From positions 31,043,225 through 31,107,224 of the forward strand of contig CM026400.1 of the NCBI GenBank assembly GCA_014843695.1: a stretch of DNA of 64,000 bases, in the 5' to 3' direction. Shown here in pieces: positions 2,128 to 53,403 of the stretch. This DNA is from Archivesica marissinica. Its lineage: Eukaryota; Mollusca; Bivalvia; Venerida; Vesicomyidae. A program made the position numbers and the translations under genes. Numbering within the stretch: position 1 is the stretch's first letter; each line of letters opens with the position of its first letter. The notes under the pieces are model-generated. The model was not told where the DNA came from. It worked only from the letters and a program-made list of their open reading frames with translations, and made no database searches.

Positions 2128-2205
2128 ATGGCCGAATCTTCATGGGATGATGTTACGTACATTAGGAAAAGACAGCCGAAGAGTGGAACATTGAAAACAC
2201 AGCAG
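2128..2205 (+). CDS. EDF1: EDF1 exon 1 (start codon, phase 0 end)
   Basis: The exon encodes 26 residues beginning [16 protein letters not shown], against human MAESDWDTVTVLRKKG. Exon 1 of the human gene, as I recall it, also supplies 26 residues ending in Lys-Gln. The donor is CAG|GTTAAA at 2206. Without splicing, the frame ends five codons later at TAA. The start is the first ATG after the gap and is preceded by an A-rich context. No other start is possible, because homology begins at this Met. Confidence 0.95.
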
Positions 2206-5200
2206 GTTAAACATCGTGTCTAATTAGAGTGGTGTTCGGATGCTATTGCTTACTTCCATGTCATGTTGTTTATGTTTCATGTCATACGTGATTTTTTCGT
2301 GGAATATTTATCAATTGTATTGTCTTATAATCTTCGTTTATAGACATGTGAAATAGTCCGCTTTATATAGGTTATATACATGTATGAAACAGAAATTAAA
2401 ATAATTTTATTAATAAATTTAGACGGGTGGCCCTAGTTCTCGAGTTACTAAGACTTTAATAAGTGTGGCGTCCGTGGTCCAATGGTAGAGCGTCGGATTT
2501 GGAATCGAATGGTCCGGGTTCAATACTCAGTCAGGCCACGTATGTAGTGTCATTGAGCAAGGCCCCTCGCACACATTGCTTAGTACTGGTTAACCGCTAT
2601 GGTCGGTTAAGCATGCCTATGAAAACATGTCTAGGTCCCCTTGACATTAATGGAACATACATACAAATAAGCACTAGCTCATTAATCAACACTTACATTT
2701 CCGCATATGTTTTGTCTTCATTTAACATACTGTTTTAAGTTATGTTTTAGACAACATTGATTATTTTCTATACGAGACAGCCATGTTTTGTTTACAATAT
2801 TCTTGTTGTCACATGGCACAGATGGATCTGTAGTCCAGTGGTAACATGCTGGACTGGTAATCCAGAGATCGCAGGTTCGATCCCCCGTCTGACCCTAATT
2901 TGTTTACAATATTCTTGAGGTATTGCTATGAGGCCCTGGATAGTGAACATTGCTATAACGGAACATACAACAACAAACAGAAATGTTTGTATTGTTAATC
3001 AACCACTTGTGGCTACTGTAAATAAGTTATTAATGAGATCTTTGCAATATAATACAGCTTACACACCAGGACGTGCAATATACACAGCTTACACACCAGG
3101 ACGTGCAATATATACAGCTTACACGCCAGGACGTGCAATATATACAGCTTACATGCCAGGACGTGCAATATATACAGCTTACACACCAGGACGTGCAATA
3201 TATACAGCTTACACACCAGGACGTGCAATATATACAGCTTACACACCAGGACGTGCAATATACACAGCTTACACACCAGGACGTGCAATATATACAGCTT
3301 ACACACCAGGACGTGCAATATATACAGCTTACACACCAGGATGTGCAATATATACAGCTTACACACCAGGACGTGCAATATATACAGCTTACACACCAGG
3401 ACGTGCAATATATACAGCTTACACACCAGGACGTGCAATATATACAGCTTACACACCAGGACGTGCAATCAGTTTCATACCCTGGTAGTAATTGTGAACA
3501 AATCCTTTGCTACAACATTTGTTCTGGTTGTTCTACAAAGTGGTAATGCAGGGTTCCCCTCTGTCTGAATGTTTGTCTGCGCCACTTCTATCGCCAATTG
3601 AAAAACACTGGAGCCAATTTAAAAAACGTGGAGCCAACTAAGAGCCATATAGTTCACAAATAAATATTTGAAGCCATGTATTTGACAAAACATGTGCCAA
3701 AGAGAGAGGGGGTGAAGTCAGGGTCCCTATGGCGACTATTTTGCCCCAGTCGAGACCTGATCTCTAGCTATGTTTTCAACATCTGATTGTTTACAAGATA
3801 TGACAAGTAGCTTGTTTTGTTTTTTAGGCATTGAATTCTGCACAGAGGCAAGGAGTTCCAATTGATACAGAAAAAAAGTGTAAGTCAAATTTAACTTGAA
3901 TATCCATAATTTATAGCTCGATCCACTGTCTGACCCTAATATAATTAACAGTCTTTCAGATGTGACTTTATAATGAAATAACATAGAAATGTAAGTGAAG
4001 TATACCACATACTGTCAAACATGTTAGTTACCGGCAGTGAAAACGAGTCAGTATTTTCACTGCTTTCCGAGCATGGAAGATTTTATTTTTTATTTTACCA
4101 ATATAACACGTGAAAGAAGATAAAAATTACCCGTAATAAAATGGTGTGGCATCCGTGGTCCAGTGGTAGAGCATCGGATTTGGAATTGAACGGTCCCAGG
4201 TTCGATACTCGGTCAGGCCACATATGTATTGTCATAGAGCAAGGCACCTCACACACATTGCTTAGTAATGGTTAACCACTTAGGTCGGCTAAGCCTGCCC
4301 AGGAAAACATGTCTAGGTCCCCGCAAGGGGTTTGACGTTAATGGAACATACATACATACAGAGTATAATACCACAATTATTTCGGCTGTTGTCTTGGTAG
4401 CTAAACGTATAAAATATATTAATAATATAGCCGTTTAAATACGAATGTATATATTATAACCTAAAATTATAATGCTTTGCAGCTTAATTCAAGAATGCTA
4501 CAAGTAAATACCAATGAAGGTATATTTTCAATTTTAATTATATAATAAATGGAAAATTCTTGAATAACTTATTTTCATATTACCACTCGTGGAATATTCA
4601 TTTTTATACCATTCGATGACAATAATACCTGTCTGTGAGATGGTACGGTGGTTGCCAGAACGGACAGGTGGGTTTTCTCTGGTTTCCTCCCACACGAATG
4701 ACCACATTTACGCTTTCATCTGCACTATTGAGAGTGATTAAGATAAGTTGTTAAAGCTTGTTTCGCAATCGTTGTAAGATAAATAAAGTTTAACCTGTAT
4801 GTATAGAAGACTGTTTAGTATACTGTACGTACCAATGGCGATAGGAGAACAGGATTTACCCTAACCATTTATCGGTATTTAGTGTGTGTACCGATGGCGA
4901 TAGGAGAACAGGATTTACCCTAACCATTTATCGATATTTAGTGTGTGTGTACCGATGGCGATAGGAGAACAGGATTTACCCTAACCATTTATCGATATTT
5001 AGTGTGTGTGTGTACCGATGGCGATAGGAGAACAGGATTTACCCTAACCATTTATTTGTATTTATTGTGTGTACCGATGGCGATAGGAGAACAGGATTTA
5101 CCCGATGACCATTTATTTGTATTTAGTGTGAGTACCGATGGCGAGAGGAGAACAGGATTTACCCAAGCCATTTATTTGTATTTAATGTATGTACCGATGG

Positions 5201-8200
5201 CGATAGGAGAACAGGATTTACCCAAACCATTTATTTGTATTTAGTGTGTGTACCGATGGCAATAGGAGAACAGGATTTACCCGATGACCATTTATTTGTA
5301 TTTAGTGTGTGTACCGATGGCGAGAGGAGAACAGGATTTACCCAAGCCATTTATTTGTATTTAATGTATGTACCGATGGCGATAGGAGAACAGGATTTAC
5401 CCAAACCATTTATTTGTATTTAGTGTGTGTACCGATGGCAATAGGAGAACAGGATTTACCCAAGCCATTTATTTGTATTTAATGTATGTACCGATGGCGA
5501 TAGGAGAACAGGATTTACCCAAACCATTTATTTGTATTTAGTGTGTGTACCGATGGCAATAGGAGAACAGGATTTACCCAAGCCATTTATTTGTATTTAG
5601 TGTGTGTACCGATGGCGAGAGGAGAACAGGATTTACCCAAGCCATTTATTTGTATTTAATGTATGTACCGATGGCGATAGGAGAACAGGATTTACCCTAG
5701 CCATTTATTTGTATTTAGTGTGTGTACCGATGGCGATAGGAGAACAGGATTTACCCAAGACCATTTATTTGTATTTAGTGTGTGTACCGATGGCAATAGG
5801 AGAACAGGATTTACCCAAACCATTTATTTGTATTTAGTGTGTGTACCGATGGCAATAGGAGAACAGGATTTACCCGATGACCATTTATTTGTATTTAGTG
5901 TGTGTACCGATGGCGAGAGGAGAACAGGATTTACCCAAGCCATTTATTTGTATTTAGTGTATGTACCGATGGCAATAGGAGAACAGGATTTACCCAAGCC
6001 ATTTATTTGTATTTAGTGTGTGTACCGATGGCGAGAGGAGAACAGGATTTACCCTAACCATTTATCGATATTTAGTGTGTGTGTGTGTGTACCGATGGCG
6101 ATAGGAGAACAGGACTTACCCTAACCATTTATCGATATTTAGTGTGTGTACCGATGGCGATAGGAGAACAGGATTTAACCGATGACCATTTATTTGTATT
6201 TAGTGTGTGTACCGATGGCGAGAGGAGAACAGGATTTACCCAAGCCATTTATTTGTATTTAGTATGTGCACCGCACCGATGGCGATAGGAGAACAGGATT
6301 TACCCAAACCATTTATCGGTATTTAGTGTATGTACCGATGGCGATAGGAGAACAAGATTAACCCGATGACCATTTATCGGTATTTAGTGTGTGTACCGAT
6401 GGCGAGAGGAGAACAGGATTTACCCTAACCATTTATCAGTATTTAGTGTGTGTACCGATGGCGATAGGCGAACAGGATTTACCCTAACCATTTATTTGTA
6501 TTAGTTGCAGGAGGACAGAATAAACAACATTCAGCTGCCAAAAACACGGCGAAGTTGGACCGCGAAACGGAGGAACTGCACCATATGCACGTGCAACTTG
6601 ATGTCTCTAAGCTCATACAGCAGGCCCGCCAGGCTAAGGGATGGACGCAGAAAGACCTTGCTACTGTACGTTGGTTTGTTTAATCGGCTCATGGTGAACT
6701 GAAGATATGTGTGGTGCGTCTAGCCTCTGACATGTCATATAGATGGTGCATCTATCCTCTGACATGTCATATAGATGGTGCATCTATCCTCTGATATGTC
6801 ATATAGTTTAAACAATATTTTATTTCAATGAATATACATAGTATAATGATCACAATAAGAAAATACATGTAGGATTGAGGAGAAAGCAACTTGCTTATAT
6901 GGCTACCTCTTTCCTACATCTAGCCTCCGACATGTCATATAGATGGTGCATCTAGCCTCTGACATGTCATATAGGTGGTGCATCTAGCCTCTGACATGTC
7001 ATATAGATGGTGCATCTAACCTCTGACATGTCATATAGATGGTGCATCTAGCCTCTAACATGTCATATAGATGGTGCATCTAGCCTCTGCCATGTCATAT
7101 AGGTGGTGCATCTAGCCTCTGCCATGTCATATAGGTGGTGCATCTAACCTCTGACATGTCATATAGATGGTGCATCTAGCCTCTGACATGTCATATAGAT
7201 GGTGCATCTAGCCTCTGACATGTCATATAGATGGTGCATCTAGCCTCTGACATGTCATATAGATGGTGCATCTAGCCTCTGACATGTCATATAGATGGTG
7301 CATCTAGCCTCTGCCATGTCATATAGATGGTGCATCTAGCCTCTGACATGTCATATAGATGGTGCATCTAGCCTCTGACATGTCATATAGGTGGTGCATC
7401 TAGCCTCTGACATGTCATATATATGGTGCATCTAGCCTCTGACATGTCATATAGATGGTGCATCTAGCCTCTGACATGTCATATAGATGGTGCATCTAGC
7501 CTCTGACATGTCATATAGATGGTGCATCTAGCCTCTGACATGTCATATATATGGTGCATCTATCCTCTGACATGTCATATAGATGGTGCATCTAGCCTCT
7601 GACATGTCATATAGATGGTGCATCTAGCCTCTGACATGTCATATAGATGGTGCGTCTAGCCACAAATTTAGTTTCAATATCATTTGTAATAGTTTATACA
7701 TATTTATTTTAGCTCGATTGCGAAACAAGTTATTTCGACTTATATTAATCACTCTCGAGACCTCATTCCTGATGGAATCCATCACCACGAGGGAGAGAGA
7801 AGAGGCAACGTGGAATTTAAAAAATGCCTTGCCTATGGGCACAAATCATTTGTAATAATTAGTACTCTCAGAGTTTTTGTCCTACACTTGTGAAAATTAT
7901 ACCATCAGAAGGGAAATTTAATTCTACAAAAGATTTACATTGACATATTTTTTATTACATTATCAGAAAGTATTGCAAATTAGCATTGAATCAGATAGGT
8001 ATCTATTATTCAATATTTTCCAATAATCTATATGGAGATGGTGTCATAGATATTGATTATTGGTAATGTAGTACAGTGTACATATTTCTCATCAGCTGTA
8101 TGGAGATAAAATGAGCTAATGGCCTCTTTTGTTATGGAGTAAAGGGTTAAGTGGATCTCCAGCTGTTCTTTGTGGAGGAAGACCCCTTGTGCCACACCTA

Positions 8201-11200
8201 GCCGTGGGCACGGGCAGGCATCCAGGTAGCAACACCAACCTTCCGCAAGCGTGATAGATACATGTAGTAGGAAGACTCCTTGTGCCACACCTAGCCGTAG
8301 GCACGGGTGGGCATCCAGGTAGCAACACCAACCTTCCGCAAGCGTGATAGATACATGTAGTAGGAAGACCCCTTGTGCCATACCTAGCCGTGGGCACGGG
8401 CGGGCATCCAGGTAGCAACACCAACCTTCCGCAAGCGTGATAGATACATGTAGTAGGAAGACTCCTTGTGCCACACCTAGCCGTAGGCACGGGCATCCAG
8501 GTAGCAACACCAACCTTCCGCAAGCGTGATAGATACATGTAGTAGGAAGACTCCTTGTGCCACACCTAGCCGTAGGCACGGGCATCCAGGTAGCAACACC
8601 AACCTTCCGCAAGCGTGATAGATACATGTAGTAGGAAGACTCCTTGTGCCACACCTAGCCGTAGGCACGGGCATCCAGATAGCAACACCAACCTTCCGCA
8701 AGCATGATAGATACATGTAGTAGGAAGACCCCTTGTGCCACACCTAGCCGTGGGCACGGGCGGGCATCCAGGTAGCAACACCAACCTTCCGCAAGCGTGA
8801 TAGATACATGTAGTAGGAAGACCCCTTGTGCCACACCTAGCCGTGGGCACGGGCATCCAGGTAGCAACACCAACCTTCCGCAAGCGTGATAGATACATGT
8901 AGTAGGAAGACTCCTTGTGCCACACCTAGCCGTAGGCACGGGCATCCAGGTAGCAACACCAACCTTCCGCAAGCGTGATAGATACATGTAGTAGGAAGAC
9001 TCCTTGTGCCACACCTAGCCGTAGGCACGGGCATCCAGGTAGCAACACCAACCTTCCGCAAGCGTGATAGATACATGTAGTAGGAAGACTCCTTGTGCCA
9101 CACCTAGCCGTAGGCACGGGCATCCAGGTAGCAACACCAACCTTCCGCAAGCGTGATAGATACATGTAGTAGGAAGACTCCTTGTGCCACACCTAGCCGT
9201 AGGCACGGGCATCCAGGTAGCAACACCAACCTTCCGCAAGCGTGATAGATACATGTAGTAGGAAGACTCCTTGTGCCACACCTAGCCGTAGGCACGGGCA
9301 TCCAGGTAGCAACACCAACCTTCCGCAAGCGTGATAGATACATGTAGTAGGAAGACTCCTTGTGCCACACCTAGCCGTAGGCACGGGCATCCAGATAGCA
9401 ACACCAACCTTCCGCAAGCGTGATAGATACATGTAGTAGGAAGACTCCTTGTGCCACACCTAGCCGTAGGCACGGGTGGGCATCCAGGTAGCAACACCAA
9501 CCTTCCGCAAGCGTGATAGATACATGTAGTAGGAAGACTCCTTGTGCCACACCTAGCCGTAGGCACGGGTGGGCATCCAGGTAGCAACACCAACCTTCCG
9601 CAAGCGTGATAGATACATGTAGTAGGAAGACTCCTTGTGCCACACCTAGCCGTAGGCACGGGTGGGCATCCAGGTAGCAACACCAACCTTCCGCAAGCGT
9701 GATAGATACATGTAGTAGGAAGACTCCTTGTGCCACACCTAGCCGTAGGCACGGGTGGGCATCCAGGTAGCAACACCAACCTTCCGCAAGCGTGATAGAT
9801 ACATGTAGCTTCTTAACTTGAAAGAATTCGGCACCCTCAGTGCCGAACCTACAGCAGTGAGGGAGGGGCAAGTGATTTGAAGTCAACGACCATGGTCACT
9901 ATGCCACTGACGCCTCCTACACAACAATTTATACATGGAACTTATCACGTTTACTATGTACATATGTACATGTAACCTGGAACTTAGCACGTTTACTATG
10001 TACATGTAACATGAAACTTAGCACGTTTACTATGTAACATGAAACTTAGCACGTTTACTATGTAACATGGAACTTAGCACGTTTACTATGTAACATGGAA
10101 CTTAGCACGTTTACTATGTAACATGGAACTTAGCACGTTTACTATGTAACATGGAACTTAGCACGTTTACTATGTACATGTAACATGAAACTTAGCACGT
10201 TTACTATGTAACATGGAACTTAGCACGTTTACTATGTAGCATGGAACTTAGCACGTTTACTATGTACATGTAACATGAAACTTAGCACGTTTACTATGTA
10301 ACATGGAACTTAGCACGTTTACTATGTAACATGAAACTTAGCACGTTTACTATGTAACATGGAACTTAGCACGTTTACTATGTAACATGGAACTTAGCAC
10401 GTTTACTATGTACATGTAACATGGAACTTAGCACGTTTACTATGTAACATGGAACTTAGCACGTTTACTATGTAACATGGAACTTAGCACGTTTACTATG
10501 TACATGTAACATGGAACTTAGCACGTTTACTATGTAACATGGAACTTAGCACGTTTACTATGTAACATGGAACTTAGCACGTTTACTATGTAACATGAAA
10601 CTTAGCACGTTTACTATGCACATATGTACATGTAACATGGAACTTAGCACGTTTACTATGCACATATGTACATGGAACATGGAACTTAGCACGTTTACTA
10701 TGCACATATGTACATGTAACATGGAACTTAGCACGTTTACTATGTAACATGGAACTTAGCACGTTTACTATGTAACATGGAACTTAGCACGTTTACTATG
10801 TAACATGGAACTTAGCACGTTTACTATGTAACATGGAACTTAGCACGTTTACTATGTAACATGGAACTTAGCACGTTTACTATGTAACATGGAACTTAGC
10901 ACGTTTACTATGTAACATGGAACTTAGCACGTTTACTATGTACATGTAACATGGAACTTAGCACGTTTACTATGTAACATGGAACTTAGCACGTTTACTA
11001 TGTAACATGGAACTTAGCACGTTTACTATGTAACATGGAACTTAGCACGTTTACTATGTAACATGGAACTTAGCACGTTTACTATGTAACATGGAACTTA
11101 GCACGTTTACTATGTAACATGGAACTTAGCACGTTTACTATGTAACATGGAACTTAGCACGTTTACTATGTAACATGGAACTTAGCACGTTTACTATGTA

Positions 11201-14200
11201 ACATGGAACTTAGCACGTTTACTATGTAACATGGAACTTAGCACGTTTACTATGTAACATGGAACTTAGCACGTTTACTATGTACATTTTGATAGACAGT
11301 ATCTCTATTATAATGCAGAATAGTCCCGAGTGTTTAAGTTTGTATCCTGTATCAGCCGCATGTCAGGGCGTTCACTAGACTTTGAAACTCAAGAGTCAAT
11401 GACCCTTGAGGTCAAAATCTCAAGAGTCAAACAGGAATTTTCAAGAGTTAAATATATGCATGTTGGTACTTTACGTACATGTAATTGTTGTAGTTTCGTG
11501 CTACCACTGTTAGCGAAGGGATTTTTCTTTTTAGCATCTCTACACTAAGTACAATACAACAGAATCTGATCATCAGTTTGTTTCATTTCCAGCCACTCAA
11601 ATTCATTAAGCCACTCAGACCTGAATTTTCTGAATGCGACGTGTGTTAGGATTTCACTGTGTATTATAACAATGACCCTACGTATGTACTGCGTATGATA
11701 TACCAGTTACATCGGTAATAGTAGAGTGTTTTCTAGAGCGGAATGACAGGGCGCCCCGCCATGCCTGTTTTGCCCCGCTCGTTAATTAAATGTTATTATA
11801 TATATGCCTCAACAGGTGAGTGCCTTCATGCGGGCGGGGCGGACCTATACCTATACACTATACAGGTAGCGGACCCTTCAGGCGGGCGGACCTATACAAC
11901 TTGGTCGTCCCTCTTCACAAATATGTACTGCCTTACTGTCTCTTTGATCAATCACCGTAAGTCAGCAAACTTTTCTAGGGGTTAACCCCCAAAATACCTA
12001 GTCCCGCACCTCAAAATACACCCTGTCCCTTTTTTGGACCCACCTTACCCTTTTTTCCCCACTCTGGAATAAACCCTAGTAAAAGTTATTGTTTTCTTGG
12101 AAGTGGCAAGTGTGCATTATACACAGAGGGAACATTTCCATCTGTAAAATTTCCATCTGTAAAATTTCCATCTGTAAAATTTCCCTCTGTATAATGCACA
12201 CCATTGCCACACAAGAAAACATTAACGTTTTAAACTTTATTTATTTTACAACGATTGCGAAGCAAGTTCTAACAACTTATATTAATCACTTTCGTTGATG
12301 CGGATGAAAGCATAAATGTGGTCATTAACATTTACTAATGTAACTGGTGTATATGATACACAGNNNNNNNNNNNNNNNNNNNNNNNNNNNNNNNNNNNNN
12401 NNNNNNNNNNNNNNNNNNNNNNNNNNNNNNNNNNNNNNNNNNNNNNNNNNNNNNNNNNNNNNNNNNNNNNNNNNNNNNNNNNNNNNNNNNNNNNNNNNNN
12501 NNNNNNNNNNNNNNNNNNNNNNNNNNNNNNNNNNNNNNNNNNNNNNNNNNNNNNNNNNNNNNNNNNNNNNNNNNNNNNNNNNNNNNNNNNNNNNNNNNNN
12601 NNNNNNNNNNNNNNNNNNNNNNNNNNNNNNNNNNNNNNNNNNNNNNNNNNNNNNNNNNNNNNNNNNNNNNNNNNNNNNNNNNNNNNNNNNNNNNNNNNNN
12701 NNNNNNNNNNNNNNNNNNNNNNNNNNNNNNNNNNNNNNNNNNNNNNNNNNNNNNNNNNNNNNNNNNNNNNNNNNNNNNNNNNNNNNNNNNNNNNNNNNNN
12801 NNNNNNNNNNNNNNNNNNNNNNNNNNNNNNNNNNNNNNNNNNNNNNNNNNNNNNNNNNNNNNNNNNNNNNNNNNNNNNNNNNNNNNNNNNNNNNNNNNNN
12901 NNNNNNNNNNNNNNNNNNNNNNNNNNNNNNNNNNNNNNNNNNNNNNNNNNNNNNNNNNNNNNNNNNNNNNNNNNNNNNNNNNNNNNNNNNNNNNNNNNNN
13001 NNNNNNNNNNNNNNNNNNNNNNNNNNNNNNNNNNNNNNNNNNNNNNNNNNNNNNNNNNNNNNNNNNNNNNNNNNNNNNNNNNNNNNNNNNNNNNNNNNNN
13101 NNNNNNNNNNNNNNNNNNNNNNNNNNNNNNNNNNNNNNNNNNNNNNNNNNNNNNNNNNNNNNNNNNNNNNNNNNNNNNNNNNNNNNNNNNNNNNNNNNNN
13201 NNNNNNNNNNNNNNNNNNNNNNNNNNNNNNNNNNNNNNNNNNNNNNNNNNNNNNNNNNNNNNNNNNNNNNNNNNNNNNNNNNNNNNNNNNNNNNNNNNNN
13301 NNNNNNNNNNNNNNNNNNNNNNNNNNNNNNNNNNNNNNNNNNNNNNNNNNNNNNNNNNNNNNNAACTTAGCACGTTTACTATGTAACATGGAACTTAGCA
13401 CGTTTACTATGTAACATGGAACTTAGCACGTTTACTATGTACATGTAACATGGAACTTAGCACGTTTACTATGTAACATGGAACTTAGCACGTTTACTAT
13501 GTAACATGGAACTTAGCACGTTTACTATGTACATGTAACATGGAACTTAGCACGTTTACTATGTAACATGGAACTTAGCACGTTTACTATGTAACATGGA
13601 ACTTAGCACGTTTACTATGTAACATGAAACTTAGCACGTTTACTATGCACATATGTACATGTAACATGGAACTTAGCACGTTTACTATGCACATATGTAC
13701 ATGGAACATGGAACTTAGCACGTTTACTATGCACATATGTACATGTAACATGGAACTTAGCACGTTTACTATGTAACATGGAACTTAGCACGTTTACTAT
13801 GTAACATGGAACTTAGCACGTTTACTATGTAACATGGAACTTAGCACGTTTACTATGTAACATGGAACTTAGCACGTTTACTATGTAACATGGAACTTAG
13901 CACGTTTACTATGTAACATGGAACTTAGCACGTTTACTATGTACATGTAACATGGAACTTAGCACGTTTACTATGTAACATGGAACTTAGCACGTTTACT
14001 ATGTAGCATGGAACTTAGCACGTTTACTATGTACATGTAACATGGAACTTAGCACGTTTACTATGTAACATGGAACTTAGCACGTTTACTATGTAACATG
14101 AAACTTAGCACGTTTACTATGTAACATGGAACTTAGCACGTTTACTATGTAACATGGAACTTAGCACGTTTACTATGTACATGTAACATGGAACTTAGCA

Positions 14201-17200
14201 CGTTTACTATGTAACATGGAACTTAGCACGTTTACTATGTAACATGGAACTTAGCACGTTTACTATGTAACATGGAACTTAGCACGTTTACTATGTAACA
14301 TGGAACTTAGCACGTTTACTATGTACATTTTGATAGACAGTATCTCTATTATAATGCAGAATAGTCCCGAGTGTTTAAGTTTGTATCCTGTATCAGCCGC
14401 ATGTCAGGGCGTTCACTAGACTTTGAAACTCAAGAGTCAATGACCCTTGAGGTCAAAATCTCAAGAGTCAAACAGGAATTTTCAAGAGTTAAATATATGC
14501 ATGTTGGTACTTTACGTACATGTAATTGTTGTAGTTTCGTGCTACCACTGTTAGCGAAGGGATTTTTCTTTTTAGCATCTCTACACTAAGTACAATACAA
14601 CAGAATCTGATCATCAGTTTGTTTCATTTCCAGCCACTCAAATTCATTAAGCCACTCAGACCTGAATTTTCTGAATGCGACGTGTGTTAGGATTTCACTG
14701 TGTATTATAACAATGACCCTACGTATGTACTGCGTATGATATACCAGTTACATCGGTAATAGTAGAGTGTTTTCTAGAGCGGAATGACAGGGCGCCCCGC
14801 CATGCCTGTTTTGCCCCGCTCGTTAATTAAATGTTATTATATATATGCCTCAACAGGTGAGTGCCTTCATGCGGGCGGGGCGGACCTATACCTATACACT
14901 ATACAGGTAGCGGACCCTTCAGGCGGGCGGACCTATACAACTTGGTCGTCCCTCTTCACAAATATGTACTGCCTTACTGTCTCTTTGATCAATCACCGTA
15001 AGTCAGCAAACTTTTCTAGGGGTTAACCCCCAAAATACCTAGTCCCGCACCTCAAAATACACCCTGTCCCTTTTTTGGACCCACCTTACCCTTTTTTCCC
15101 CACTCTGGAATAAACCCTAGTAAAAGTTATTGTTTTCTTGGAAGTGGCAAGTGTGCATTATACACAGAGGGAACATTTCCATCTGTAAAATTTCCATCTG
15201 TAAAATTTCCATCTGTAAAATTTCCCTCTGTATAATGCACACCATTGCCACACAAGAAAACATTAACGTTTTAAACTTTATTTATTTTACAACGATTGCG
15301 AAGCAAGTTCTAACAACTTATATTAATCACTTTCGTTGATGCGGATGAAAGCATAAATGTGGTCATTAACATTTACTAATGTAACTGGTGTATATGATAC
15401 ACAGTACGCAAAGAGTTCCCGGAAATCTAGTTAATCCGGTCTCCCTTTTTACTGTAGAAAATAAATGAAAAACAACAAGTGATAAACGAATATGAGTCTG
15501 GAAAGGCAATACCGAACAACCAGATCATGTCAAAGTTGGAACGTAACTTGGGTAAGTAAAGTTTCCTTCCTTCAGTTGTACTGTAACTTGGGAAAGGAAA
15601 TGTTCTTCAGGAGGAATGTAACTTGGGTAAGTAAAGTTTCCGTCCTTCAGTTGTACTGTAACTTGGGAAAGGAAATGTTCTTCAGGAGGAATGTAACTTG
15701 GGTAAGTAAAGTTTCCTTCCTTCAGTTGTACTGTATCTTGGGAAAGGAAATGTTCTTCAGGAGGAATGTAACTTGGGTAAGTAAAGTTTCCGTCCTTCAG
15801 TTGTACTGTATCTTTGGAAAGGAAATGTTCTTCAGGAGGAATGTAACTTGGGTAAGTAAAGTTTCCGTCCTTCAGTTGTACTGTATCTTGGGAAAGGAAA
15901 TGTTCTTCAGGAGGAATGTAACTTGGGTAAGTAAAGTTTCCTTCCTTCAGTTGTACTGTAACTTGGGAAAGGAAATGTTCTTCAGGAGGAATGTAACTTG
16001 GGAAAGGAAATGTTCTTCAGGAGGAATGTAACTTGGGTAAGTAAAGTTTCCTTCTTTCAGTTGTACTGTAACTTGGGAAAGGAAATGTTCCTTTCTTCAG
16101 GAGGAATGTAATGCGGGTAAGTAGATTCCTTCCTTTAGTTGTAGCGTAACTTGGGTAAGTAGATTTCCTTCGTTTAGTTGTAACATAACTTAGGTAAGTA
16201 GATTTCCTTCCTTTAGTTGTAACATAACTTAGGTAAGTAGATTTCCTTCCTTTAGTTGTAACGTAACTTGGGTAAGTAGATTTACTTCCTTTAGTTGTAA
16301 CGTAACTTGGGTAAGTAGATTTACTTCCTTTAGTTGTAATGTAACTTGGGTAAGTATATTTTGCTTCCTTCAGTTGTAACGTAACTTGGGTAAGTATATT
16401 TTACAGTCTAACCTCTAAATGACTGTGGTATGTATAGAAATATACAGTCTAACCTCTAAATGACTGGTATATATAGAGATATACAGTCTAACCTCTAAAT
16501 GACTGGTATATATAGAGATATACAGTCTAACCTCTAAATGACTGGTATATATAGAGATATACAGTCTAACCTCTAAATGACTGGTATATATAGAGATATA
16601 CAGTCTAACCTCTAAATGACTGGTATATATAGAGATATACAGTCTAACCTCTAAATGACTGGTATATATAGAGATACAGTCTAACCTCTAAATGACTGGT
16701 ATATATAGAGATATACAGTCTAACCTCTAAATGACTGGTATATATAGAGATATACAGTCTAACCTCTAAATGACTGGTATATATAGAGATATACAGTCTA
16801 ACCTCTAAATGACTGGTATATATAGAGATATACAGTCTAACCTCTAAATGACTGGTGTATATATAGAGATATACAGTCTAACCTCTAAATGACTGTGGTA
16901 TGTATAGAGATATACAGTCTAACCTCTAAATGACTGTGGTATGTATAGAGATATACAGTCTAACCTCTAAATGACTGTGGTATGTATAGAGATATACAGT
17001 CTAACCTCTAAATGACTGTGGTATGTATAGAGATATACAGTCTAACCTCTAAATGACTGGTATATATAGAGATATACAGTCTAACCTCTAAATGACTGGT
17101 GTATATAGAGATATACAGTCTAACCTCTAAATGACTGGTATATATAGAGATATACAGTCTAACCTCTAAATGACTGGTATATATAGAGATATACAGTCTA

Positions 17201-20200
17201 ACCTCTAAATGACTGGTATATATAGAGATATACAGTCTAACCTCTAAATGACTGGTATATATAGAGATATACAGTCTAACCTCTAAATGACTGGTATATA
17301 TAGAGATATACAGTCTAACCTCTAAATGACTGGTATATATAGAGATATACAGTCTAACCTCTAAATGACTGGTATATATAAAGATATACAGTCTAACCTC
17401 TAAATGACTGGTGTATATATAGAGATATACAGTCTAACCTCTAAATGACTGTGGTATGTATAGAGATACAGTCTAACCTCTAAATGACTGTGGTATGTAT
17501 AGAGATACAGTCTAACCTCTAAATGACTGTGGTATGTATAGAGATATACAGTCTAACCTCTAAATGACTGTGGTATGTATAGAGATATACAGTCTAACCT
17601 CTAAATGACTGGTATGTATAGAGATACAGTCTAACCTCTAAATGACTGTGGTATGTATAGAGATATACAGTCTAACCTCTAAATGACTGGTATGTATAGA
17701 GATACAGTCTAACCTCTAAATGACTGTGGTATGTATAGAGATATACAGTCTAACCTCTAAATGACTGTTGTATGTATAGAGATACAGTCTAACCTCTAAA
17801 TGACTGTGGTATGTATAGAGAGATACAGTCTAACCTCTAAATGACTGTGGTATGTATAGAGATACAGTCTAACCTCTAAATGACTGTGGTATGTATAGAG
17901 ATACAGTCTAACCTCTAAATGACTGTGGTATATATAGAGATATACAGTAACCTCTAAATGACTGGTATATATAGAGATATACAGTCTAACCTCTAAATGA
18001 CTGTGGTATGTATAGAGATATACAGTCTAACCTCTAAATGACTGTGGTATGTATAGAGATACAGTCTAACCTCTAAACGACTGTGGTATATATAGAGATA
18101 TACAGTAACCTCTAAATGACTGGTATATATAGAGATATACAGTCTAACCTCTAAATGACTGTGGTATGTATAGAGATACAGTCTAACCTCTAAACGACTG
18201 TGGTATGTATAGAGATACAGTCTAACCTCTAAACGACTGTGGTATGTATAGAGATACAGCCAGCCAAGGGAATCACAGGAAATGGCTGCTTAGTAGAGGT
18301 GAAATGTATAAGAAAGTAACATATTTGGAATCTGACAAACTGGCTGCTTAATACAGGTTGGCTGCTGAACGGAGGTGACCACTAACAGATTTGATTGTAA
18401 AGTCAAACCTGTCTTAAGCAGCCAGCCAAGGGACTCACAGAATGTGGTTGCTTAGCACAGGTGGCTGCTTAATAGAGGTCTAATGTATAATAGAACAGCA
18501 TATTGTGAATCTAGAAACTGGCTGCTTAATACTGGTTGGCTGCTTAATGGAGGTGACCACTAACACAGATTTGACTGTAGTATTATTATAATGACTTTGT
18601 TATTAATTAAGTGATTTTATATTGACCTTGTTATTGAGATGAAGCCAGCCATATGGCCTCAGTCCGTGGTCTAGCATGACAGGCTGAATCCAAATAATAA
18701 GGTCCAAATATGAAATCACTTAATTAAAGCAAAATTATTACATCGTATGAAATAAAAGATATTTGAAAAATTCAAATTTTACGTATGGGTAGTAGCAATG
18801 CTGCTACACATTCTAACATTATACTTTGTATGCTTATGTTCATTTGGTAAACAGTGTTTTTTTGCGATAAAACAAACTCGAAACCGAAAGTAGGACTTTC
18901 CGAGTCGATAGTCTTTCATGTTCAAAATGTATACGTTGTTTTCTACATCCTCTGTTGTTTCACGCATGCGCGCTGTGCGTGTTTACATTCCTTGTGTTGA
19001 TAAACAAATTCGCGTATACGACGGTTTAAATTTATTGGAATTGTATCGTTTCTGAGCGACTATTTCGATTTTTGTAAACACACACATTAGTATTTATATT
19101 TTACCCAAAACATCCTTTATTACGATGTAATGCTGCTTTAACCCATTCAACACCAAGTAACTGACATGGACTGGTCCATGATATTTTTAGACCAATAAAT
19201 TAATAACAAAATTACATTTGGATCAGTTCATTTATCAAAATGGGTAATTTTTTTTCTAAAAATAGTTATATTACTGAAAAAAGTGCAGATCCTGATGAGA
19301 CGGCTCGTCACGAGCCGGCTCATCTGGATCTACACTTTTTTTGTAAGCCAATTTAGAGGTCTGTGGTGTTGAAAGGGTTAATGAACATTTTTTATTAATT
19401 GACTATAGAATATTTCCAAGAGTAACAACAATTAATTCTAAGAAAGCAGGCAATCTCATACAGGGCGAGTCCCAACAACCAATCAGATTTCGGCATTTAG
19501 TTCCATATTGGCCGTGCTAGCTCCATAGTAGACGAGCTAAGCAATGATATAGGCAAGCTCACGCTCGTTATGGACAAGGAAACGACTCAAGTTGCAGATA
19601 ATATTCAATAGTTAATTAACCCATTTCATTCTGGATACTGTTCAAACAGTATTTGCAAAGAACATAGAGCCAGATCAACCGCCACGAAACGTGCTGTCTG
19701 ATCAGGCTCTATGCTGTTTGCTATTCAGATGATCTTGCTAAGACACTTGGCTATGTAGCAAACAACATAGATCCTGATCAGCACGCAGCGTTACGCTGCG
19801 GCTGATCTGGATCTATGTTGTTTGCAAAAGCCTTTAAATGTATCCAGAATGAAATGGGTTAATAAAATAATATATTTGTGGGAAAGGAAACACTTTGCAC
19901 GCTAGCTGAAGATAAAATCACTTTTGCAAACAGCATAGAGTCAGATCAGACTGTTTGCTATTCGGATAGTGGAGCTGAAGCACTTGGCTGAATAGCAAAC
20001 AACATAGATCCTGATCAGACGTGGCCGTGTCTCATTTATATGAAAAAGTTGGCAGTTTCTTACGAAGGTTGAGGCACACAAGTACTGGTTAACCGCTGGA
20101 GCCTGCCCAGGAAAGGTGTTGTTAAGTAAACTGCCCGCTGACGATATAGCCCGAAATGGTGCTGATTGATGCAGGCTTAAAACCCGAAATATAACATAAT

Positions 20201-20329
20201 ATAACATATAATTTTTCGTAAACTAGTTTAATTTATTATTATCGTATTTTTTATTTTCTTCATTTTACAGGCGTTAGGTTGAGGGGGAAGGACAGGGGAC
20301 AGGTTCTCGGACCACCCACAAAGAAGTAG
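2128..20329 (+). CDS. EDF1: EDF1/MBF1 transcriptional coactivator, whole five-exon gene
   Basis: Five exons (2128-2205, 3828-3879, 6505-6665, 15458-15551, 20271-20329) join to 444 nt, 147 residues plus stop; human EDF1 has 148. All introns are GT-AG. Known role of the family: a conserved coactivator that bridges TBP and activators such as bZIP proteins and nuclear receptors, binds calmodulin, and associates with stalled or collided ribosomes. The N-terminal MBF1 domain covers about residues 1-72. A Cro/C1-type helix-turn-helix covers about 80-133 and includes GWTQKDLAT and the [10 protein letters not shown] turn. The C-tail [11 protein letters not shown] ends in basic residues. Introns of 1.6, 2.6, 8.8 and 4.7 kb all contain minisatellites, and the third also contains a gap and a probable false duplication. 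Confidence 0.97.
2463..2668 (+). mobile_element. tRNA-derived SINE, family S3, copy 1
   Basis: The head GTGTGGCGTCCGTGGTCC plus a downstream GGGTTCAATAC resembles pol III A and B boxes of a tRNA. The body matches the copy at 4144-4361, including AGCAAGGC, GGTCGG and AAAACATGTCTAGGTCCC, and ends in a CATACATA-type tail. It lies in EDF1 intron 1. Confidence 0.8.
2788..2917 (+). mobile_element. tRNA-Thr-like head (S2 SINE) between 18-bp direct repeats
   Basis: Bases 2819-2895 have tRNA form. A CTGGA/TCCAG stem surrounds a loop CTGGTAA whose anticodon would be GGU (Thr), followed by a B box GCAGGTTCGATCC. The same head starts the S2 SINE at 42637. TTGTTTACAATATTCTTG occurs on both sides (2788-2805 and 2900-2917), a likely target-site duplication from LINE-mediated insertion. 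No SINE body follows. It is more likely a retroposed or truncated copy than a working tRNA gene, because the acceptor stem carries a mismatch. Confidence 0.7.
3053..3470. repeat. 30-bp minisatellite, ~14 copies
   Basis: The core is CTTACACACCAGGACGTGCA and the period is exactly 30. Because 30 is a multiple of three, each frame repeats one decapeptide. Open frames on both strands (for example 2928-3488) are by-products. Few substitutions (ATG/ACG, TAT/TAC) separate units. It lies in EDF1 intron 1, about 360 bp before exon 2. Confidence 0.95.
3560..3755. repeat. dispersed repeat fragment upstream of EDF1 exon 2
   Basis: The block GTGAAGTCAGGGTCCCTA and its flank (about 3700-3755) recurs inverted at about 26360-26420 (GGCGAAATTGTCGCCCTAGG region). 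The 5' part has AAAACACTGGAGCC-like words repeated twice. Type unknown; probably an old transposon remnant. Confidence 0.5.
3828..3879 (+). CDS. EDF1: EDF1 exon 2 (52 nt)
   Basis: The acceptor is a run of T then TAG at 3825-3827; the donor is GTAAGT at 3880. The exon encodes [17 protein letters not shown] and the first base of the next codon (human AILAAQRRGEDVETSKK). The residual T joins TT of exon 3 to give Phe, where human has Trp. This pairing decides which of several AGs is the acceptor of exon 3: the GCAG five bases downstream would create TGA. Confidence 0.95.
4144..4361 (+). mobile_element. tRNA-derived SINE, family S3, copy 2
   Basis: The head is GTGTGGCATCCGTGGTCCAG, with a B-box-like CAGGTTCGATACTCGG. 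The body shares AGCAAGGCACCTC and CATGTCTAGGTCCC with the 2463 copy, plus a CGCAAGGGG block missing there. It ends in a CATACATACA tail. It lies in EDF1 intron 2. Confidence 0.8.
4636..4795 (+). mobile_element. SINE 3' part, family S4
   Basis: It contains GGACAGGTGGGTTTTCTC, CCTCCCACACGAATGACC and a 3' end GTTTCGCAATCGTTGTAA followed by AATAAAGTTTA. Related copies are at 12229, 15270, 26976 and 47355-48015. It ends about 15 bp before the 59-bp minisatellite starts. Confidence 0.7.
4811..6504. repeat. EDF1: ~59-bp minisatellite ending on the exon 3 acceptor, ~28 copies
   Basis: Core words are CCGATGGCGATAGGAGAACA, then GGATTTACCC, then CTAACCATTTATTTGTATT and TAG. Period varies 59-65 because a short GT run changes length. 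Units near both ends keep the branch-point-like CTAAC; many middle ones read CAAAC or CAAGC. The last unit ends TTTGTATTAG, which is the 3' splice site of exon 3. So the array incorporates the whole 3' end of the intron. Short open frames inside (62-99 codons) are repeat translations. Confidence 0.95.
6481..6504 (+). promoter_or_regulatory. EDF1: EDF1 intron 2 branch point and 3' splice site inside a repeat unit
   Basis: CCCTAACC supplies a good branch-point match (CTAAC) about 18 nt before the TAG at 6502-6504. The frame of EDF1 requires this AG: joining at 6505 gives Phe-Ala-Gly-Gly-Gln-Asn. Equivalent CTAAC plus TTTAG blocks occur in many units upstream. Confidence 0.85.
6505..6665 (+). 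CDS. EDF1: EDF1 exon 3
   Basis: TT completes a Phe codon, then 53 codons follow: [53 protein letters not shown]. It spans the end of the MBF1 domain and the first two helices of the helix-turn-helix (human [33 protein letters not shown]). The donor is ACT|GTACGT at 6666, phase 0. This is the best-conserved exon of the gene. Confidence 0.98.
6710..7661. repeat. 32-bp minisatellite with a 110-bp interruption, ~26 copies
   Basis: The core is GGTGCATCTAGCCTCTGACA then TGTCATATAGAT. It begins 45 bp after the exon 3 donor. Units 6807-6915 are replaced by an unrelated AT-rich segment (AATATTTTATTTCAATG to GCAACTTGCTTATATGG) that looks like an inserted SINE tail. Variants (TATCC, TAACC, GCCATG, TATATATG) are scattered. 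EDF1 intron 3. Confidence 0.95.
7690..7842 (-). mobile_element. S1 SINE, 5'-truncated
   Basis: Reverse strand. It includes the family 3' end (AGCTCGATTGCGAAACAAG as read on +), the CTCGAGACCTCATTCC block and GGCAACGTGGAATTTAAA. It lacks the tRNA-like head. EDF1 intron 3. About 310 bp of AT-rich sequence with nothing recognisable separates it from the next array. Confidence 0.8.
8177..9808. repeat. 89/93-bp minisatellite, ~18 copies
   Basis: Core words are CACACCTAGCCGTAGGCACG, GCATCCAGGTAGCAACACC and GATAGATACATGTAGTAGG. Two unit lengths differ by a 4-bp GGTG/GGCG insertion before GCATCC. 93-bp units sit at both ends and once in the middle, while 89-bp units fill the inner block. Since 89 is not a multiple of three, the overlapping 88-codon reverse frames are repeat artefacts. 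EDF1 intron 3. Confidence 0.95.
9829..9917 (-). mobile_element. S5 SINE head fragment
   Basis: Read on the reverse strand it starts GGAGGCGTCAGTGGCATAG and includes ACTTCAAATCACTTGCCCC and a GTAGGTTCGGCACTG B-box-like segment. Similar heads are at 49147, 49732, 53448 and 55181. Confidence 0.55.
9932..11286. repeat. 28-bp minisatellite, first block, ~47 copies
   Basis: The core is CATGGAACTTAGCACGTTTA then CTATGTAA. Variant units gain ACATGT (34 bp) or a longer ACATATGTACATG insert. The pattern of variants from about 10335 to 10930 matches that after the gap at 13364 with a constant offset of 3029, then differs. Confidence 0.95.
12091..12220. mobile_element. foldback element with internal 15-bp repeats
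   Basis: Arms GTTTTCTTGGAAGTGGCAAG + TGTGCATTATACACAGAGGG and their near-perfect reverse complement (ending CACACAAGAAAAC) enclose four CATCTGTAAAATTTC-like units. The length is about 130 bp and there is no coding capacity. The second copy is at 15132-15261. Confidence 0.75.
12229..12335 (-). mobile_element. S4 SINE fragment
   Basis: Reverse-strand 3' end of family S4: TAAACTTTATTTATTTTACA, ACGATTGCGAAGCAAG and GATGCGGATGAAAGC on +. It is repeated at 15270-15376 as part of the duplicated segment. Confidence 0.7.
12364..13363. other. assembly gap (1000 N) inside EDF1 intron 3
   Basis: Exactly 1000 N. The sequence before it (11287-12363) reappears intact after it, and the 28-bp array resumes immediately on the right side. 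Confidence 0.99.
13364..14327. repeat. 28-bp minisatellite, second block, ~33 copies
   Basis: Same unit as 9932-11286. The left half shows the same order of variant units as the first block, including the three consecutive ACATATGTACATG variants. The right half has a different order (TGTAGCATGG and additional 34-bp units), as expected of two alleles of one variable array. Confidence 0.95.
14328..15404. repeat. 1.08-kb segment, second copy, continuing into exon 4
   Basis: Identical by eye to 11287-12363. This copy continues without a break into TACGCAAAGAG and then EDF1 exon 4, so it is the one placed correctly next to the gene. It includes the second foldback element (15132-15261) and the second S4 fragment. 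Confidence 0.9.
15458..15551 (+). CDS. EDF1: EDF1 exon 4
   Basis: The acceptor is CTTTTTACTGTAG at 15457; the donor is TTGG|GTAAGT at 15552, phase 1. It encodes [20 protein letters not shown] then [11 protein letters not shown] plus the first G of a Gly codon (human [32 protein letters not shown]). It is the second half of the helix-turn-helix. If the donor is not used, the frame reads Leu-Gly-Lys-stop within three codons, so correct choice of the first donor is required. Confidence 0.98.
15541..16400. repeat. EDF1: 75/39-bp minisatellite carrying splice donor and acceptor signals
   Basis: The array begins within exon 4 (CGTAACTTGG) and copies the donor. GTAAGT recurs about 15 times, at 75-bp spacing up to about 15927 and at 39-bp spacing from 16155 to 16390. 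Each 39-bp unit reads TTCCTTCCTTTAG, a 16-nt TTGTAACGTAACTTGG, then GTAAGTA. The 75-bp unit is a dimer in which the second donor is altered to GAAAGG. The 179-codon frame from 15492 is not in the EDF1 frame and is a repeat artefact. Confidence 0.95.
16402..18257. repeat. ~39-bp minisatellite, ~48 copies
   Basis: The core is TACAGTCTAACCTCTAAATG then ACTGGTATATATAGAGATA. There are two main variants, GGTATATATAGAG and GTGGTATGTATAGAG, in blocks, with some units lacking AT or CT. It starts straight after the donor array and fuses at its right end with a TTAAGCAGCC MITE at the shared ACAG. EDF1 intron 4. Confidence 0.95.
18258..18397. mobile_element. TTAAGCAGCC MITE, copy 2 (left end lost)
   Basis: It starts at CCAGCCAAGGGAATCACAGG, without the CAGTCAAACCTGTCTTAAG terminus, where the preceding minisatellite ends. 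The right end is ACTAACAGATTTGATTG, followed by TA. Confidence 0.8.
18400..18577. mobile_element. TTAAGCAGCC MITE, copy 3
   Basis: It begins AAGTCAAACCTGTCTTAAGC (first base changed from C to A) directly after the TA that ends copy 2, and ends CAGATTTGACTG plus TA. Two copies thus sit head-to-tail sharing one TA. Confidence 0.85.
18580..19137. other. unique AT-rich intron sequence
   Basis: EDF1 intron 4. Nothing coding is recognised. A CACGCATGCGCGCTGTGCG patch at about 18961-18980 resembles an NRF1-type site. The 62-codon reverse frame at 18779-18967 has no supporting feature. Confidence 0.5.
19138..19381. mobile_element. TTAA-flanked MITE (piggyBac-like), copy 1
   Basis: TTAA CCCATTCAACACCAAG at the left and CTGTGGTGTTGAAAGGG TTAA at the right form imperfect inverted ends. 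There is an internal hairpin around GACGGCTCGTCACGAGCC. TTAA target sites with CCC termini are typical of piggyBac elements (established); the family call is inference. About 234 bp of unrecognised sequence follows to the next element. Confidence 0.75.
19616..19862. mobile_element. TTAA-flanked MITE (piggyBac-like), copy 2
   Basis: The inverted ends are perfect over at least 20 bp: TTAACCCATTTCATTCTGGA and its complement at 19843-19862. Inside are nested hairpins built of CATAGAGCCAGATCA, GATCAGGCTCTATG and AACAACATAGATCCTGATCA words. Confidence 0.85.
19922..20020. mobile_element. fragment related to the 19616 MITE
   Basis: It shares GCAAACAGCATAGAGTCAGA, TGTTTGCTATTCGGAT and TAGCAAACAACATAGATCC with the previous element's interior, but both TTAA ends are missing. 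Confidence 0.65.
20020..20195 (+). mobile_element. S6 SINE, 5'-truncated
   Basis: It matches the reverse complement of 63785-64000: CGTGTCTCATTTATATG, GTTGGCAGTTTCTTACG, AGTACTGGTTAACCGCTGGA, GGTGTTGTTAAGTAAACTGC and a TATAGCCCGAAATGGTGC block. The tRNA-like head is absent. Confidence 0.75.
20271..20329 (+). CDS. EDF1: EDF1 exon 5 and stop codon
   Basis: The acceptor is CTTCATTTTACAG at 20270. GC completes the split Gly codon; then [18 protein letters not shown] and TAG (human LKLRGKDIGKPIEKGPRAK). It is the C-terminal tail after the helix-turn-helix. The basic LRGKD motif is conserved, while the last ten residues are divergent as is usual in the family. Confidence 0.96.
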
Positions 20330-44263: not shown

Positions 44264-45558
44264 GCAGGTGCTTCTTGCATTCTATTTATAGACTACAAAG
44301 GTCTATATAATTCGAGGTGCTTCTTGCATTCTATTTATAGACTACAAAGGTCTATGTAATTCGAGGTGCTTCTTGCAGTCTATTTATAGACTACAAAGGT
44401 CTATGTAATTCGAGGTGCTTCTTGCATTCTATTTATAGACTACAAAGGTCTATGTAATTCGAGGTGCTTCTTGCAGTCTATTTATAGACTACAAAGGTCT
44501 ATGTAATTCCAGTTACTTCTTGTAGTCTAGTATAGACTACAAAGGTCTATGTAATTCGAGGTGCTTCTTGCAGTCTATTTATAGACTACAAAGGTCTATA
44601 TAATTCGAGGTGCTTCTTGCAGTCTACTATAGACTACACAGGTCTATGTAAGTCCAGTTACTTCTTGTAGTCTATTATAGACTACACAGGTCTATGTAAG
44701 TCCAGTTGCTTCTTGTAGTCTATTATAGACTACAAAGGTCTATGTAAGTCCAGTTGCTTCTTGTAGTCTATTATAGACTACACAGCTCTATGTAAGTCCA
44801 GTTACTTCTTGTAGTCTATTATAGACTACAAAGGTCTATGTAAGTCCAGTTGCTTCTTGTAGTCTATTATAGACTACACAGCTCTATGTAAGTCCAGTTA
44901 CTTCTTGTAGTCTATTATAGACTACAAAGGTCTATGTAAGTCCAGTTGCTTCTTGTAGTCTATTATAGACTACACAGCTCTATGTAAGTCCAGTTACTTC
45001 TTGTAGTCTATTATAGACTACAAAGGTCTATGTAAGTCCAGTTGCTTCTTGTAGTCTATTATAGACTACACAGCTCTATGTAAGTCCAGTTACTTCTTGT
45101 AGTCTATTATAGACTACAAAGGTCTATGTAAGTCCAGTTGCTTCTTGTAGTCTAGTATAGACTACAAAGGTCTATGTATGTTTTTTGCAGTCTAGTATAG
45201 ACTACAAAGGTCTATGTAATTCCAGTTACTTCTTGCAGTCTAGTATAGACTACAAAGGTCTATGTAATTCCAGTTACTTCTTGCAGTCTAGTATAGACTA
45301 CAAAGGTCTATGTAAGTCCAGTTACTTCTTGCAGTCTAGTATAGACTACAAAGGTCTATGTAATTCCAGTTACTTCTTGCAGTCTAGTATAGACTACAAA
45401 GGTCTATGTAATTGTTACTTCTTGCAGTCTAGTATAGACTACAAAGGTCTATGTAAGTCCAGTTACTTCTTGCAGTCTAGTATAGACTACAAAGGTCTAT
45501 GTAAGTCCAGTTACTTCTTGCAGTCTAGTATAGACTACAAAGGTCTATGTAAGTCCAG
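44264..45558. repeat. ~50-bp hairpin minisatellite, ~26 copies
   Basis: Each unit holds GTAGTCTATTATAGACTAC, a near-perfect inverted repeat, followed by AAAGGTCTATGTAAGTCC and AGTTACTTCTTG. From about 44640 to 45140 two unit types alternate, AAAGGTCTA...GTTGCT and CAGCTCTA...GTTACT, so the real period there is about 100 bp. The left end uses TTCGAGGTGCTTCTTGC units and the right end GCAGTCTAGTATAGAC units. The 129-codon frame at 45185 is an artefact. Confidence 0.95.
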
Positions 45559-53233: not shown

Positions 53234-53403
53234 AACACAGACACAATTTAAAAACATGAAGCAGAGTTCCATTGTACTACTGATCGCCATAGCAACTTAC
53301 TGCATTCTAACAACGCACACATTTTACATTAGCGACGAGGACAATATAGCCGCGAATCCACAATACAGAGATGTGTTAGATCTAGACTCGGAGGACAATG
53401 CAG
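53234..53403 (+). CDS. peptide precursor exon 1 (signal peptide)
   Basis: The acceptor CTTTATCTTTACAG precedes 53234, so a non-coding 5' exon probably exists upstream. ATG is at 53256: the first in-frame Met after the acceptor and immediately before a hydrophobic core IVLLIAIATYCIL. An ATG at 53211 in the same frame lies before the acceptor and is less likely. The donor is GCAG|GTGAGA at 53404, phase 1. If unspliced, the frame continues only ten codons to RQKRCF and stop, which I regard as intron. Confidence 0.75.

Follow-up and report, generated by a model that had tools for sequence, protein, structure and literature searches.

How the spliceosome chooses among identical neighboring splice sites has mostly been addressed by duplicating such sites artificially. 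A natural case of intron gain through tandem duplication is said to exist in the potato RdRp gene, and a splice-donor minisatellite was reportedly described in human IFI6 (G1P3, 6-16) by Turri et al. in 1995. According to the accessible part of one account, two downstream repeat donors of IFI6 are used, giving three mRNAs that encode different isoforms (PMC4526556). In amphioxus, tandem copies of exon-intron boundaries known as “mirages” occur in Adh3, the globins BflGb6 and BflGb9, TnC and PGBD5; they lie on the donor or the acceptor side, many of their units (10-160 bp) carry splice signals, the units evolve in concert, and regular splicing is undisturbed by them in the available portions of the two reports (PMC3087553, PMC3902484). 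Internal tandem repeats at exon-intron boundaries, which may create introns, are described in the accessible text of a study of human segmental duplications (PMC2812944), and a model of intron gain by tandem duplication (Rogers) is cited in the available part of PMC3087553. In the literature on bivalve, mollusk and clam minisatellites, covered here largely outside subscription journals, no boundary minisatellite was recognized, and the accessible text of a cone snail paper names minisatellites only in the title of a reference (PMC3862624).

The window analyzed here, a 64,000-nucleotide stretch of the clam Archivesica marissinica (C15:31043225-31107224 of a 1.54-Gb assembly), contains five exons that join into a 444-nt reading frame encoding a 147-aa protein, EDF1:

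2128..2205, + strand: EDF1 coding exon 1, from exon assembly and bivalve EDF1 proteins
3828..3879, + strand: EDF1 exon 2, from exon assembly
6505..6665, + strand: EDF1 exon 3, its acceptor set by the conserved KKFAGGQNK
15458..15551, + strand: EDF1 exon 4 (94 nt), its final 18 nt forming the first part of the array described below
20271..20329, + strand: EDF1 exon 5 with the normal stop, from exon assembly and bivalve EDF1 proteins

The gene had been named EDF1 in the first-pass annotation, and this is borne out by the Pfam domains that together span the protein, MBF1 (PF08523, 92.1 bits, 2.9e-26) and HTH_3 (PF01381, 55.1 bits). Among the best 120 of 1285 matches in a protein search, the EDF1 of Mercenaria mercenaria is the closest (90% identity over 147 aa), and that of Ruditapes philippinarum is 87% identical, which points to a venerid-like host. 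Another exon 3 acceptor, TTGCAG/GAGG, was ruled out because it brings a stop at the exon 2 junction and loses the conserved KKFAGG. When the genome was searched with the protein, four matches were returned, namely exons 1, 3 and 4 at this locus, the short exons 2 and 5 being absent from the matches, and a second exon 1 at C15:17874143-17874226 (residues 1-28, 93% protein identity) that is accompanied by no match to other exons. No full EDF1 gene besides the one in the window was found in the assembly, and splicing at this locus must therefore work. No convincing second gene was seen by eye among stop-to-stop frames of at least 70 aa outside the arrays, and RNA family matches in the window are limited to two, both tRNA-Thr-like. 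A short frame at 53256-53435, starting with MKQSSIVLLIAIATYCILTT and ending in IIRQKRCF and a stop, resembles a small secreted precursor that includes a basic cleavage site.

The boundary between exon 4 and intron 4 lies within a tandem array that has two phases:

15534..16401, + strand: boundary array of 23 units with 15 donors, from TRF and unit-by-unit reading
15534..16098, + strand: 75-bp dimer phase with 7 donors, in which GTAAGT and GAAAGG units alternate, with one extra GAAAGG at 16002
16099..16401, + strand: eight units of ~39 bp, all GTAAGT, with 8 donors, from unit reading

Each unit consists of 18 nt of exon-like and 17-22 nt of intron-like sequence, and the array starts 18 nt inside exon 4, at AGTTGGAACGTAACTTGG, which encodes K-LERNLG. 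Donors 1-8 begin at 15552, 15627, 15702, 15777, 15852, 15927, 16037 and 16117, and donors 9-15 at 16155, 16194, 16233, 16272, 16311, 16350 and 16390; the other eight of the 23 units carry GAAAGG in this place (15592, 15667, 15742, 15817, 15892, 15967, 16002 and 16077). TRF detects the 75-bp phase at 15538-16010 with 97% matches, and tandem copies of such similarity are not a product of chance. Of the 18 exonic letters, 15-17 are retained in the seven rightmost units and 12-15 in the other fifteen copies, the exon-like part being 17/18 identical to exon 4 in three of the ~39-bp units. A change in the exon-like part of those seven rightmost units converts the exon 4 Glu codon to a stop, so that exchange between array and exon would presumably be harmful. 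A 171-base query made of exon end and array matched the genome at 11 places, all of them at EDF1 and none at another locus. An unrelated 39-bp array of 47 copies (16402..18256, + strand; TRF) adjoins the boundary array without a spacer at 16401/16402, both having in part a 39-bp period.

Most of this anatomy had been anticipated. Some 15 tandem copies of the donor, beginning inside exon 4, had been placed at 15541..16400, and they are present as 15 GTAAGT in 23 units with 18 coding nt in the first, but the array starts at 15534 and its TRF end is 16401. An acceptor had been assigned to each unit, and all 23 units, those of the 75-bp phase included, do have an AG 18 nt before the donor position, mostly after a pyrimidine run; the formal 16-nt micro-exon that follows is thus present in every downstream unit, again with those of the 75-bp phase. 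The pyrimidine-TTTAG said to lie 23 nt after each donor is found at that distance in five of the seven ~39-bp units that have a further unit behind them, the range being 22-24 nt and one unit reading TTCAG. Likewise, GAAAGG replaces every second donor of the 75-bp units except that the alternation breaks once, where GAAAGG stands at both 15967 and 16002, 35 bp apart; the unit at 16002 appears to be a recombinant of the two kinds of unit.

The end of exon 4 is also informative about where the array came from. In an alignment of 17 EDF1 proteins, in which the clam row covers exon 1 only and clam exon 4 was compared by eye, KLERNLG is intact in 8 (among them Mercenaria, Ruditapes, Mya and Dreissena), altered only at the N in 8, and altered at two residues in one. 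Since this coding segment is conserved across bivalves, the exon is the source and the array units are the copies, as had been proposed. Both substitutions (+2 and +6) are common to all eight GAAAGG units, seven of which are 35 nt long, and this suggests that one mutated unit was spread by turnover; its amplification within the 75-bp dimer looks like the simplest history. The proposal that decoys are being lost here by selection was rejected, as it needs repeated losses where one amplified mutant suffices, and perfect GTAAGT persists in 14 of the 22 non-first units; moreover, four myosin boundary arrays considered below have kept GT or AG in 23 of the 24 copies found. A constraint on the donors was also considered and set aside, GTAAGT being invariant in 15/15 non-mutated units but with too few independent changes for such a conclusion.

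The consequences of donor choice for the protein follow from two adjoining features:

15552..15557, + strand: first donor GTAAGT, the sole donor giving the 147-aa EDF1, from translation of the joined exons
15557..15559, + strand: in-frame TAA, reached immediately when the first donor is skipped, from translation

Translation from donors 2-15 gives an identical 130-aa product ending in KLERNLGK and a stop in 14/14 cases, with the stop 67-830 nt before the last junction. Two earlier statements are hereby confirmed, that use of a later donor retains GGT AAG TAA and stops translation immediately and that only the first donor gives EDF1; in-frame isoforms of the IFI6 kind do not arise from any of the 14 downstream donors. 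The predicted pairing with U1 (RNAduplex) is -11.9 kcal/mol for the first donor and for nine others, and -12.1 to -13.0 kcal/mol for the remaining five, so that the donors are indeed equal, as had been supposed, or slightly stronger than the first. The eight GAAAGG sites reach -3.8 to -5.0 kcal/mol, and the donors of exons 1-3 are weaker than the first donor of exon 4, at -5.6, -6.4 and -1.2 kcal/mol. Because the first donor is no stronger than its copies, position and not strength must discriminate between them.

A second array lies against the acceptor of exon 3:

4829..6504, + strand: intron 2 array, 28 units of ~59 bp (TRF 4829-6502)

Most of its units end in an acceptor-like sequence, CCATTTAT..TATTTAG, and the last one supplies the inferred exon 3 acceptor (AG at 6503-6504). 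TAG is kept in 22 of the 27 upstream units, and a branch-point-like CTAAC is present in 8 of all 28; use of any of these 22 TAG would result in a premature stop, at 44-123 aa versus 147. The 24-mer spanning the exon 3 acceptor has 0 copies, whereas that of the exon 4 donor has 7 and is the only scorer among the eight boundaries of EDF1. As exonic sequence is absent from the intron 2 unit, this is an abutting acceptor array rather than a boundary-spanning one. Within intron 3, the flanks of a 1000-N gap (10335-12363 and 13364-15404) match each other in a 2,047-bp alignment at 98.7%, with 2 mismatches plus gaps. The left stretch stops at the position equivalent to 15404, which is ~53 bp before exon 4 begins. 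This duplication is probably an unmerged contig overlap, in which case intron 3 of EDF1 is shorter than assembled.

Together, these features make it likely that the exon 4 array is a minisatellite of the mirage type, a known though seldom reported kind of repeat, in which a boundary segment was duplicated and amplified, exon 4 is defined by its innermost pair of splice sites, and the later donors are mostly passive. A segment across the boundary, ~18 nt of exon and 21 nt of intron, would have undergone tandem duplication, after which the usual turnover of minisatellites through slippage, unequal exchange and homogenization would have multiplied the copies. At each new unit junction, intron pyrimidines would meet an exonic AG and form an acceptor-like site. 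The spliceosome would define exon 4 by the innermost pair (94 nt) and so use the first donor, with the later donors mostly silent inside the intron; any use of them would give an early-stop transcript, and mis-spliced transcripts would decay. We infer first-donor use, this decay, the exon-definition rule and the turnover steps from the arrangement of the sites. One rule of innermost pairing fits both arrays of the gene, given that the innermost donor of exon 4 yields the conserved protein and the last acceptor copy before exon 3 is the true site. Some experiments with duplicated sites reportedly favored the intron-proximal donor, which counts against first-donor use, and the use of downstream repeat donors in human IFI6 means that the passivity of the EDF1 copies is not guaranteed.

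It could be instead that the array has a role in regulation, the competition among 15 donors producing early-stop, degraded transcripts and the length of the array or the supply of splicing factors setting EDF1 dosage. The 14 later donors are all as strong as the first or slightly stronger, their shared stop lies 67-830 nt upstream of the last junction and hence beyond the usual limit of 50-55 nt, and truncation would likewise follow from use of the 22 upstream copies of the exon 3 acceptor. However, most boundary duplications that break the frame would look the same, and stops are also met in the arrays of other genes described below (L065, L074, L077, L051 and L083). Tandem GGTAAGT is not over-represented genome-wide (60,545 triple matches versus 82,718 for the reversed pattern, counted with overlaps within arrays), and amphioxus mirages are reported, in the accessible text, without disturbance of splicing (PMC3087553, PMC3902484). 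Regulated unproductive splicing is thus considered improbable. The 15 near-perfect U1 sites just inside the intron might also serve as a platform for U1 that guards this 4.7-kb intron against premature polyadenylation or makes exon 4 easier to recognize, but donor-like triples are not enriched in the genome and the other intron arrays of EDF1 lack GTAAGT on the coding strand, which leaves such a function very unlikely.

The AG that precedes every donor position, mostly behind a pyrimidine run, could conceivably make the units real 16-nt micro-exons or steps in recursive splicing. A recursive splice site joins an acceptor directly to a donor, leaving an exon of zero length; here 16 nt separate the AG from the donor. 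Neighboring 39-bp units would leave introns of 22-24 nt, which to our knowledge are too short for animal spliceosomes, and a 16-nt exon breaks the frame: each of the 22 downstream units, included singly, leads to a stop at 131-135 aa (the exon's own copy was added as a check). This reading is scarcely credible, and a fabrication of the array by the assembly deserves equally little weight. The scaffold gap does end only 2.2 kb upstream, and its flanks are duplicated in the alignment given above, but the array lies within a single N-free stretch, the variation among its units is structured, and boundary arrays of a similar kind are present on other contigs. The mirage-type minisatellite remains the preferred account.

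Tandem arrays are abundant in this genome, making up 54% of the window, 58% of the EDF1 introns and 37% of four other 10-kb stretches, and their relation to splice sites was surveyed at exons of the myosin head family (74 matches). The first set comprised 24 of 30 loci, with L071 (incomplete) and the paralogous duplicates L054, L055, L057, L060 and L061 left out, and the second comprised 22 of the 44 other matches, with flanks of 600 nt versus 1500 nt in the first. An array was counted as touching a splice site if it starts from 70 nt before to 20 nt after it, a rule fixed after the first set had been seen and applied unchanged to the second. In the first set, arrays touch 5/24 donors (0.87 expected for random intron positions, P 0.001) and 2/24 acceptors (1.18 expected, P 0.33); in the second, they touch 5/22 donors (1.91 expected, P 0.025) and 8/22 acceptors (2.03 expected, P 2e-5). 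Across both sets 20 of 92 splice sites, partly heuristic in their placement, are touched versus 6.0 expected, an excess of ~3-fold. A script chose the splice sites in the 56 surveyed exons, and checking by eye, which did not extend to every site, showed at least three to be mis-picked: the likely true acceptor of L074 lies 13 nt past the end of the array, the likely true donor of L089 lies ~22 nt upstream and is not flush under the 20-nt rule, and the true donor of L100 is the first copy. Without the L089 donor and the L074 acceptor, 9 donors and 9 acceptors are touched (Poisson P 0.002 and 0.006). Two myosin exon matches 240 bp apart at C5:100289375-100289707 both cover profile positions 122-152 and are perhaps alternative exons.

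A stricter test required the 24-mer across a boundary (12 + 12) to recur at least twice, with at most 5 mismatches, in 580 nt of flanking intron. It is positive at 3 of 46 myosin donors, with 6 copies at L065 (5 keep GT), 3 at L074 (3 with GT) and 4 at L077 (4 with GT), and it flags 2 of 46 acceptors, L083 (11 copies, 11 with AG) and L074, the latter being set aside because it rests on the wrongly picked site. At L083 (1-624, reverse complement), the start of a myosin exon and its acceptor are copied in 48-bp units, and an in-frame stop is present in every unit that was read. At L051, TRF and then reading by eye revealed a decayed boundary array with 96-bp units, and read-through at L065, L074, L077 and L051 meets a stop after 3-9 codons. 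Among CCT chaperonin genes, chosen as a housekeeping check, ten exons from the first twelve of 57 matches were examined with 250-nt flanks, one long match and one with its neighbor's profile range being left out; the script flagged 0/9 donors and 0/10 acceptors. By eye, the exon end NILNKLRQSHAQ and its donor recur in ~42-bp units at the CCT locus L100 (415-694), with CAAGGTA in four places, the true donor included. Script and eye together yield six boundary arrays, five in myosin and one in CCT genes, in the 56 surveyed exons (112 edges).

Recurrence of 24-mers from the middle of exons was found in 0 of 92 tests, and that of intronic 24-mers at 17% of positions (308/1800, first set). The boundaries fall between these levels, which argues that splice sites as such do not attract arrays; we infer that arrays are tolerated up to splice sites and purged inside exons. 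The idea that donor arrays form a selected class in the genome was rejected, triple GGTAAGT at short spacing being rarer than its reverse. Elsewhere in the window, a 48-bp array at 44271-45558 contains GTAAGT in 15 places and is not beside any recognized exon. The balance of this evidence tips slightly toward boundary-spanning minisatellites being a genome-wide feature of the clam, present at several percent of splice sites, in housekeeping genes too, arising where minisatellites touch exons and tolerated through exon definition by the innermost pair. If so, hundreds of genes would carry 3-30 identical competing splice sites, a natural experiment, and the clam genome would be a breeding ground for new introns and unproductive isoforms. 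EDF1 itself presents the spliceosome with 15 equal donors at exon 4 and ~23 acceptor copies at exon 3, a design that recurs in other clam genes with different copy numbers and unit lengths. These arrays would establish that mirages are not confined to amphioxus, and would indicate how frequently duplicated boundaries provide the material for new introns.

Read from its sequence, the EDF1 array fits a mirage-type minisatellite in three features, which it shares with amphioxus mirages as far as those are described in the accessible reports: the unit spans the boundary (12-17 of 18 exon letters retained in 22 copies), the splice signals are kept (GTAAGT in 15/23, AG in 23/23), and turnover is concerted (97% matches in the 75-bp dimer phase). 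Unlike the amphioxus cases, it resides in a bivalve, has 23 units with 15 intact donors, and is accompanied by a second array on the acceptor side of another exon. As in the available account of IFI6, a minisatellite supplies multiple donors to the transcript, but in the human gene the downstream repeats give isoforms, whereas the later donors of EDF1 all stop translation. The repeats in human segmental duplications, in the part of that study at hand, are likewise minisatellite expansions at an exon-intron boundary; those differ among recent paralogs, whereas the EDF1 array is found in one gene copy. As in the cited model of intron gain, tandem duplication creates a new acceptor-donor pair, although no new intron is evident in EDF1 and the copies lie inside intron 4. 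What the clam adds to these systems is a bivalve host, a high copy number, and the recurrence of boundary arrays within one genome.
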